Origin: Thermus scotoductus DSM 8553
GTDB lineage: Bacteria; Deinococcota; Deinococci; Deinococcales; Thermaceae
Length of the DNA: 36,172 nt
Reading direction: 5' to 3'
Assembly: GCF_000381045.1 (NCBI RefSeq)
Contig: NZ_KB905749.1
Coordinates: forward strand, 1 to 36,172
How positions within the stretch are numbered: position 1 is the first letter of the stretch; the number at the start of each line of letters is the position of its first letter. Of the stretch, positions 7,229 through 9,504 are shown piece by piece. A program made the translations under genes and the position numbers. The notes beneath the pieces were generated by a model that was given only the letters and a program-made list of their open reading frames with translations, had not been told where the DNA came from and did not search any database.

Positions 7229-8374
7229 TCAGTACGCCTGTCCCGTGGCCTTGGTGAGGAGGAGCCTGAACTCGTGGGGGCTGGTGGCGGCGGGAAGGGC
7301 GTCCTCCAGGGAGATGAGCCCCTGGCTGTAGAGCTCCACCAAATGCTGGTCGAAGGTGTGCATCCCGTGGATGGAGCCCTCCATCATGGCCTCCTTGATC
7401 TGGGGGGTCTTGTCCTCATCCTTGATGAGCTCCCGCACGTAGGGCGTGGCGATGAGAACCTCGAGGGCCAAAACCCTCCCCTTCCCGTCCGCCCGGGGGA
7501 GGAGGCGCTGGGAGAGGATGCCGAGAAGGGACTCCGCCAGGAGGATGCGCACCTGCTGGTGCTCGTGCAAGGGGAAGAACTCGATGATGCGGTTGATGGT
7601 CCGCCCCGCGTCCAGGGTGTGCAGGGTGGAAAGCACCAGGTGCCCGGTCTGGGCCGCCATGAGGGCGGCCTCCACCGTCTCCTTGTCCCGCATCTCCCCG
7701 ATGAGGATCACGTCCGGGTCCTGGCGCATGGCGTACTTGATCCCGGAGTAGAAGCTATCCGTGTCCAGCCCCACCTCCCGCTGCACCACCAGGCTCTTCT
7801 TATGCCTGTGCAGGAACTCTATGGGGTCTTCTATGGTGATGATGTTCTTGGCGTAGTGCAGGTTGATGTGGTCGATGATGGCCGCCAAGGTGGTGCTTTT
7901 GCCACTTCCGGTAGGACCCGTCACCAGGATGAGCCCCCGCTCCTTGGCCGCCAGCCCCTCCATCACCTCCCGGGGCAGGCCCAGGGCCTCAAAGCTGGGG
8001 ATCACCTCGGCCACCACCCGCATCACCAGGCCAAAGCTACCCCGTTGCCTTAAGAGGTTGCAGCGGAAGCGGGCCACCCCGGGGATGGTGTAGGCGAAGT
8101 CCATCTCCTTGCGGTACTCCATCTCCTCCCATTGCTCCGGGGTGAGGAGGGCTTTGGCGATGGCCTCGAGGTCCTTGGGGGTGAGGGGCCGGTTGCCAAA
8201 GGGCTTCAGCTTTCCATCCACCCGGATCACGGGGGGAGCCCCGGCCTGCAGGTGGATATCCGAGGCCCGGGCCTGGACCATGGCCTTGAACATCTCCAAA
8301 AGGCTGTGCCTGCCCTCCTGGGAAGAAGCCTCCCTAGCCGACCTAGCCCCTTCGGAGCCCTTCTCCTCGCTCAT
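7229..8374 (-). CDS. pilT: Type IV pilus retraction ATPase PilT
   Basis: This hexameric cytoplasmic ATPase powers pilus retraction, twitching motility and, in Thermus, aspects of DNA uptake. The 381-residue protein has an extra N-terminal tail of about 25 charged residues, then the PAS-like domain ASDIHLQAGAPPVIRVDG. Walker A is GPTGSGKST (about 151-159). The Asp box is TIEDPIEFLH, Walker B is DVILIGEMRD, and the His box is TGHLVLSTLHT. The C-terminal DQHLVELYSQGLIS is typical of PilT. PilT and PilU are close paralogues, so PilU cannot be ruled out. The start overlaps the panC stop by 4 bp (ATGA). Confidence 0.92.
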   Translation of the reverse strand: MSEEKGSEGARSAREASSQEGRHSLLEMFKAMVQARASDIHLQAGAPPVIRVDGKLKPFGNRPLTPKDLEAIAKALLTPEQWEEMEYRKEMDFAYTIPGVARFRCNLLRQRGSFGLVMRVVAEVIPSFEALGLPREVMEGLAAKERGLILVTGPTGSGKSTTLAAIIDHINLHYAKNIITIEDPIEFLHRHKKSLVVQREVGLDTDSFYSGIKYAMRQDPDVILIGEMRDKETVEAALMAAQTGHLVLSTLHTLDAGRTINRIIEFFPLHEHQQVRILLAESLLGILSQRLLPRADGKGRVLALEVLIATPYVRELIKDEDKTPQIKEAMMEGSIHGMHTFDQHLVELYSQGLISLEDALPAATSPHEFRLLLTKATGQAY

Positions 8375-9201
8375 GGATGGACCTCTAGGTTGTCGATCAA
8401 GCGCACCTCGGGAAAGCGGCCGGCCACGATCCCCCTGGCTCCGGGCACAAAGCGGGAAAGGGGCAAAAGGGTTTGGGGGTGGACGATGGCCAAATAGTCT
8501 GGCCGAAACTCCGGAGCTTCCCTAAGCACTTCCTCACCCCTTTCCAAGGCCTCGGCCACACCCTCACCCCTTAGGGCCGCTTCCCGCATGGCCAAAAGGG
8601 CCCGGTAGAGGACCGTGGCCTCCTTGCGCCTTTGCGGGGACAGGTAGACGTTGCGGCTGGAAAGGGCCAGGCCATCCTCCTCCCGCACCGTGGGCACCCC
8701 CACCACCTCCAGGGGAAAGCCCAGGTCCCGCACCATCTTGCGGACCACCAGAAGCTGCTGGTAGTCCTTTTCGCCAAAGTAGGCCCGGCTTGGCCCCACC
8801 AGGAGGAAAAGCCTGGCCACCACCGTGGCCACCCCCTGGAAGTGGCCGGGGCGCACCTCCCCTTCCCAAAGGGCGGTAAGGGGCCCCTCCACCGATACCC
8901 GGGTGGCAAAGCCTTGGGGGTACATCTCCTCCACGCCGGGGGCGAAGAGGAGGTCCACCCCCGCCTCCTCCAAAAGGGCCTGATCCCGCTTAAGGTCCCG
9001 GGGGTAACGGTGGTAGTCCTCCCCGGGGCCAAACTGCAAGGGGTTGACGAAGATGGAGACCACCACGAAGGGGTTCTCCTTCCGGGCCCTTTCCACCAGG
9101 GCCAGGTGCCCCCGGTGGAGGTAGCCCATGGTGGGGACAAACCCCACCCCCTCCCGGGGGAGGGCCTGCCTTAACTCGGCCACGGTGTGCGCCACCTTCA
9201 C
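8371..9201 (-). CDS. panC: Pantoate-beta-alanine ligase
   Basis: The enzyme joins pantoate and beta-alanine with ATP to make pantothenate, the vitamin precursor of coenzyme A. The 276-residue protein has the nucleotidyltransferase HxGH motif in PTMGYLHRGHL (around residue 31), FVNPLQFGPGEDYHRYPR, FGEKDYQQL, and the KMSKS-equivalent LALSSRNVYLSP. The start is the GTG at 9201, 7 nt after a TATACT -10 box, with no room for a Shine-Dalgarno, so the mRNA is likely leaderless. pilT follows with a 4-bp overlap, placing both on one transcript. Confidence 0.95.
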   Translation of the reverse strand: MKVAHTVAELRQALPREGVGFVPTMGYLHRGHLALVERARKENPFVVVSIFVNPLQFGPGEDYHRYPRDLKRDQALLEEAGVDLLFAPGVEEMYPQGFATRVSVEGPLTALWEGEVRPGHFQGVATVVARLFLLVGPSRAYFGEKDYQQLLVVRKMVRDLGFPLEVVGVPTVREEDGLALSSRNVYLSPQRRKEATVLYRALLAMREAALRGEGVAEALERGEEVLREAPEFRPDYLAIVHPQTLLPLSRFVPGARGIVAGRFPEVRLIDNLEVHP

Positions 9202-9208
9202 AGGGCTC

Positions 9209-9216
9209 AGTATACT
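9209..9216. promoter_or_regulatory. Palindromic AGTATACT: one -10 element for two divergent genes
   Basis: AGTATACT is its own reverse complement, so it shows TATACT on each strand. On the minus strand TATACT (9214-9209) is 7 nt from the panC GTG (9201). On the plus strand TATACT (9211-9216) is 6 nt from the GTG at 9223. Both genes would be leaderless and could not be initiated at the same time. No good -35 hexamer is seen on either side. Confidence 0.55.
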
Positions 9217-9222
9217 TTCCCC

Positions 9223-9504
9223 GTGGGCAAGAAGAAGCGCGAGGAAAAGCTCAAGAAAAAGGCCCTGAAGGAGTGGGAGGAGAGGCGGCCCAAGACCTTC
9301 CGCGAAGCCCTCAAGTACTTCCCCGGCATCTTCTTCCGCACCACCTTGGTGGTGATGGCGGCCACCCTCCTCATCCTGTTTACCGGTGTCCTGGGCCTTG
9401 CCTGGGCCCAGAGCATGTGGTTCCAGATCCTCGTCTACCTGGGGTTTTACCTCCTCTTCCAGCGCTTCATCATGGGGCCTTTAGCCCCACCCCGGATAAA
9501 ATGA
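9223..9504 (+). CDS. Small two-helix membrane protein, function unknown
   Basis: I do not recognise this protein. From the GTG at 9223 it has 93 residues. A very basic N-terminus (GKKKREEKLKKKALKEWEER) suggests a cytoplasmic, membrane-surface or nucleic-acid-contacting segment. Two hydrophobic helices follow (TTLVVMAATLLILFTGVLGL and MWFQILVYLGFYLLF) and a short basic tail. A longer version from an ATG at 9187 would start inside panC and place the -10 box in the coding region, so I reject it. It is followed after 6 nt by the Uma2 gene. Confidence 0.7.
   Translation: MGKKKREEKLKKKALKEWEERRPKTFREALKYFPGIFFRTTLVVMAATLLILFTGVLGLAWAQSMWFQILVYLGFYLLFQRFIMGPLAPPRIK

Follow-up and report, generated by a model that had tools for sequence, protein, structure and literature searches.

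An 8-bp palindrome, AGTATACT (positions 9209 to 9216), lies between the divergent start codons of panC and a small membrane-protein gene in Thermus scotoductus DSM 8553, where it very probably acts as a bidirectional sigma-A -10 element that drives two leaderless genes without meaningful switching between them. The first-pass annotation of this DNA had proposed one palindromic -10 box for two leaderless divergent genes, and the spacing, the leaderless signature, the lack of Shine-Dalgarno (SD) and -35 elements, the conservation of the box and the orthologues that do not share it all agree with that proposal, as judged from sequence. Taken singly the locus is a modest finding; the genus-wide class of promoters described below is the more interesting result.

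Structure of the locus

Within the window (the whole stretch analyzed, 36,172 nucleotides long), positions 9199 to 9225 read CAC AGGGCTC AGTATACT TTCCCC GTG. The start codon of panC (pantoate--beta-alanine ligase; 8371 to 9201, minus strand, GTG at 9201) and that of the small gene (93 amino acids; 9223 to 9504, plus strand, GTG at 9223) are 21 bp apart, exactly as first annotated, and the self-complementary box presents TATACT 7 nt from the one and 6 nt from the other, again with exact coordinates. The predicted -10 hexamer of the small gene occupies 9211 to 9216 on the plus strand, at the distance of the main genome-wide peak (-12, see below), and that of panC occupies 9209 to 9214 on the minus strand, at the distance of the second peak (-13), so that the two overlap by 4 bp on opposite strands. 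The corresponding mRNA 5' ends are predicted at 9223 for the small gene and at 9201 to 9202 for panC.

The panC product matches PF02569 (1.2e-100) and TIGR00018, and the 3' end of panC overlaps by 4 bp a gene for a T2SSE/PilT-like ATPase (7229 to 8374, minus strand) that is probably cotranscribed with it. The 93-residue protein has a basic amino terminus and two hydrophobic stretches, and matches no family in Pfam or NCBIfam; because it is present in all 27 Thermus genomes and in 11 of 11 other Thermaceae tested, we take its reading frame to be a real gene. An alternative plus-strand start, GTG at 9187, was rejected, because it would overlap panC and because a constant distance between GTG and box is conserved only from 9223 on. 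A Uma2-family gene (PF05685; 9511 to 10062) starts 6 bp beyond the 3' end of the small gene on the same strand, and the two perhaps form one operon.

The box occurs once in the window, against 0.05 copies expected, and eight times in the 2.07-Mb source genome, against one copy of a reversed control pattern. Inspection of the sequence revealed no SD before either start; the best matches to a -35 element reach only 3/6 and 2/6, and no -35/-10 promoter of sigma-70 type was found near the box. An upstream -35 promoter was considered for the two genes and rejected, there being no promoter-like match nearby. Both genes have the sequence features of leaderless -10-motif genes in Deinococcus-Thermus (TANNNT 6 to 7 nt before the start, no SD, no required -35), and both promoters score within the usual range for leaderless promoters (28th and 44th percentile). 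On the panC side the discriminator is GAGCCCT (often GGGCCCC in relatives), whose upstream end is richer in purines than TTCCCC on the plus side; from this we would guess that panC may be the stronger direction.

The description of the box as a 'single shared element' holds in that the hexamers overlap by 4 bp, but not at the level of the critical bases, which fall on different base pairs. In the plus direction -12T, -11A and -7T are T9211, A9212 and T9216, and in the panC direction they are A9214, T9213 and A9209 (T, A and T when read on the minus strand); the two promoters thus interleave without common contacts, and a single substitution at either outermost position should therefore separate the directions.

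Conservation and unshared orthologues

At 27 of 27 orthologous sites in Thermus the box stands unchanged between the GTG starts; loss of the palindrome in close relatives, which would have spoken against the original proposal, was not seen in these genomes. While the box stays identical, the spacers vary, from 6 to 7 nt on the plus side (6 nt in 25 genomes, 7 nt in two) and from 5 to 7 nt on the panC side (7 nt in 26, 5 nt in one). A gap-free alignment of 25 genomes shows no variation in any of the eight box columns, whereas about 20% of third codon positions in panC and the small gene are invariant; the contrast is notable, though it falls short of proof, because invariant runs of at least eight columns also occur within the panC coding sequence.

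Conservation bears directly on the possibility that only one direction uses the box, the palindrome being incidental (TATACT is nearly self-complementary) and the other gene being expressed from elsewhere. Some symmetry does come free with TATA, and neither direction has a -35. Beyond TATACT, however, the reverse hexamer requires only A9209 and G9210, and both are invariant in the 27 genomes; both starts lie at precisely the leaderless distance without an SD, and the surroundings hold no other promoter-like site; and ten orthologues of the small gene with an unshared promoter mostly use TAAACT without the A-G flank. We consider the one-sided use of the box unlikely.

These ten orthologues, from other Thermaceae in which the small gene lies apart from panC, have an asymmetric box (mostly TAAACT, otherwise TAGACT, TACACT or a similar TANNNT), mostly 6 to 7 nt before the start, and the small gene looks leaderless there too. 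Conversely, a Thermaceae metagenome-assembled genome has TATACT, seven nucleotides and GTG before panC, with the small gene not adjacent. Because relatives that do not share the box keep the one promoter or the other, each promoter is independently supported. A sister genus (G049) retains CCCAGTATACTGGG 7 nt from the GTG of the small gene, with the panC start displaced to 62 nt from the box, so panC would have a leader there. In the sequences compared, full symmetry of the box is seen only where it is, or seemingly until recently was, shared.

The displaced panC leader of the sister genus (L294/L297) holds GGGGGCGGGACGCCCCC, a strong potential hairpin that panC transcription would meet just after the box, and which is possibly an attenuator or a stabilizing element.

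Proposed mechanism

Sigma-A RNA polymerase would bind AGTATACT in either orientation, read TATACT and melt the box, and transcription would start at, or at most one base from, the relevant GTG: leftwards that of panC, rightwards that of the small gene. The products would be two leaderless mRNAs from opposite strands, with about 21 to 22 bp between their 5' ends. The box could hold one polymerase at a time, a limit that should not yield a switch while initiation rates are modest; the most likely outcome would be steady, loosely coupled expression of both genes from the least possible DNA. We infer the actual 5' ends, activity both ways, the relative strengths and the absence of switching, and one direction could dominate with the other weak.

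The first-pass annotation had gone further, describing a two-way switch in which polymerase on one strand must exclude the other. Exclusion stands on steric grounds, being unavoidable with overlapping hexamers, but a true switch, in which occupancy one way shuts off the other to a physiologically meaningful extent, is in our judgment very unlikely. In Escherichia coli a strongly activated direction can repress its opposite (PMC12825309), but the five bidirectional promoters tested there all had too little basal activity to compete (PMC12825309), and the panC locus shows no site for an activator or a repressor.

Overlapping boxes across a Thermus chromosome

We surveyed 2.4 Mb of a single-contig Thermus chromosome (G008), in which 2423 genes and 308 divergent pairs were called with a home-made caller (codon log-odds, no upstream signal, other starts accepted if they scored within a margin; per-genome counts are therefore approximate), and displaced control windows were run through the identical procedure. 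TANNNT peaks at -12 (287 genes) and -13 (146 genes), that is, 6 and 7 nt ahead of the start codon, against a background of about 15 per position. The commonest leaderless hexamers are TAGACT, TAAACT and TATACT, with C the commonest base at -8, and -35 matches are not in excess among leaderless genes of this chromosome.

Both genes have a box at leaderless distance in 57 of the 308 divergent pairs, against 1 to 4 in controls, and in 29 of these 57 the hexamers overlap, against 0 to 3 in controls. An offset of +4 between the hexamers (ANNNTANNNT) accounts for 16 pairs (Poisson p about 2e-13 versus uniform) and an offset of -1 (TANNNTA) for seven (p about 2e-4); three pairs have an offset of -3, and three have the offset of +2 (AnTATAnT) seen at the panC locus, which is not over-represented alone (p about 0.1). 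The case for the panC locus therefore draws on conservation and spacing rather than on this last count. If 7 bp are assumed from box to transcription start site (TSS), the offsets +4, -1, +2 and -3 correspond to inferred TSS spacings of 23, 18, 21 and 16 bp. The panC arrangement is accordingly not unique, as there are about 29 overlapping-box pairs (the counts being approximate) in 2.4 Mb of one Thermus chromosome.

Two of the +4 pairs were followed through the genus (gene names come from reading the translations, with no search). TANNNT on both strands is kept in 24 of 24 Thermus genomes aligned for a pair adjoining a uvrC-like gene, and in 25 of 27 for a pair adjoining a hemE-like gene. At the hemE-like pair of one genome (G016; L362, compared with L336 to L360), two separate TANNNT boxes replace the single overlapping one, which may be a naturally occurring example of one shared promoter having split or of two having merged.

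We estimate that a Thermus genome holds about 30 such ultra-compact two-way promoters, and we lean towards the view that bidirectional -10 elements are a standard means of gene packing in Thermus, maintained by selection, at about one in ten divergent pairs and with the coupling of the two genes built in. If so, about 20 bp hold the promoter, the 5' ends of the two mRNAs and their start codons.

Relation to known promoters

Both ingredients of this arrangement have been published. The bidirectional promoters that Warman, Grainger and colleagues described from -10 symmetry (PMC12825309, PMC10268837) resemble those of Thermus in that one short -10 region is read both ways. In E. coli the commonest TSS spacing is 18 bp, with 10 and 23 bp also common, and all five promoters tested had basal transcription too low for competition (PMC12825309); the spacings of 23 and 18 bp inferred for the overlapping Thermus pairs are both common in E. 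coli. The Thermus promoters differ in that both transcripts appear to be leaderless protein-coding mRNAs, with start codons only about 14 to 25 bp apart. At the panC locus, moreover, the geometry is the rarer interleaved one, with a spacing of 21 to 22 bp (predicted from sequence) that is not among 18, 10 and 23 bp, and there is no -35 on either side.

The second ingredient is the leaderless gene. About 40% of genes in Deinococcus-Thermus genomes are predicted to be leaderless (PMC3160421), and in Deinococcus a TANNNT motif adjoining open reading frames drives leaderless transcription (by mutation and reporter tests), with RNA-seq support in T. thermophilus (PMC12340547). The panC locus is like these genes in having TANNNT 6 to 7 bp before the start, no SD and no need of a -35 (PMC12340547, PMC3160421), but those studies treat leaderless genes singly, whereas here they form a divergent pair; the terms 'diverg', 'bidirectional' and 'palindrom' are absent from the main text of PMC12340547. 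The combination was not found described: our literature search, which covered few subscription papers, returned no paper that joins leaderless genes with such bidirectional promoters.

Bidirectional promoters are known from TSS maps, and one of the two RNAs is often antisense or noncoding, so that bidirectionality may be either selected or a by-product of -10 symmetry. The two products in Thermus both look like mRNAs, the shared box is retained throughout the genus, and its symmetry is complete only where it is shared; these features point to selection. With no -35, leader or SD, such loci are near-minimal two-gene promoters, suited to clean tests of how polymerase chooses its orientation and of competition. 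Shared boxes of this kind would also help to fix the start codons of close divergent genes in the Deinococcus-Thermus phylum.

Other copies of the palindrome

The first-pass annotation had suggested a search of Thermus genomes for such palindromes between close divergent starts. The pattern AGTATACTN{5,8}RTG occurs 2 to 6 times per strand in every Thermus genome, against 0 to 1 control matches. Among the matches listed, the palindrome has starts on both sides at the panC pair and at a tyrosyl-tRNA-synthetase (tyrS) pair in 18 of 18 genomes (manual count), with one or two further double sites of this kind in several genomes. The source genome has a third, between a phosphoribosyltransferase gene and another open reading frame.

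These sites also bear on a very unlikely alternative, that AGTATACT serves as a transcription-factor operator through which both genes are repressed or activated. In its favor, the palindrome is perfect over 8 bp and strictly conserved, and the same core lies within a 20-bp palindrome at another site in Thermus (L029, see below). Against it, the symmetry stops at 8 bp at the panC locus, where the flanks are asymmetric in all 27 genomes and variable; the same 8-mer adjoins unrelated genes (tyrS, phosphoribosyltransferase) at the exact -10 distance; and other loci of the surveyed chromosome (G008) use overlapping boxes that differ widely in sequence for this purpose.

Two other copies have further symmetry around or beside them. 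At L029 (G000:C2, about 66051 to 66070) a 20-bp perfect palindrome, CGCTTAAGTATACTTAAGCG, covers the -10 of a leaderless methyltransferase-like gene and may represent either an operator or a promoter with extended symmetry; many Thermus genomes likewise have AGTATACT ahead of a similar GCG(A/G)TG start. At L033 (G000:C14:35548) the palindrome ACCGACCGGTCGGT directly adjoins AGTATACT upstream of a minus-strand ATG, and resembles a TetR-type operator placed over a promoter.
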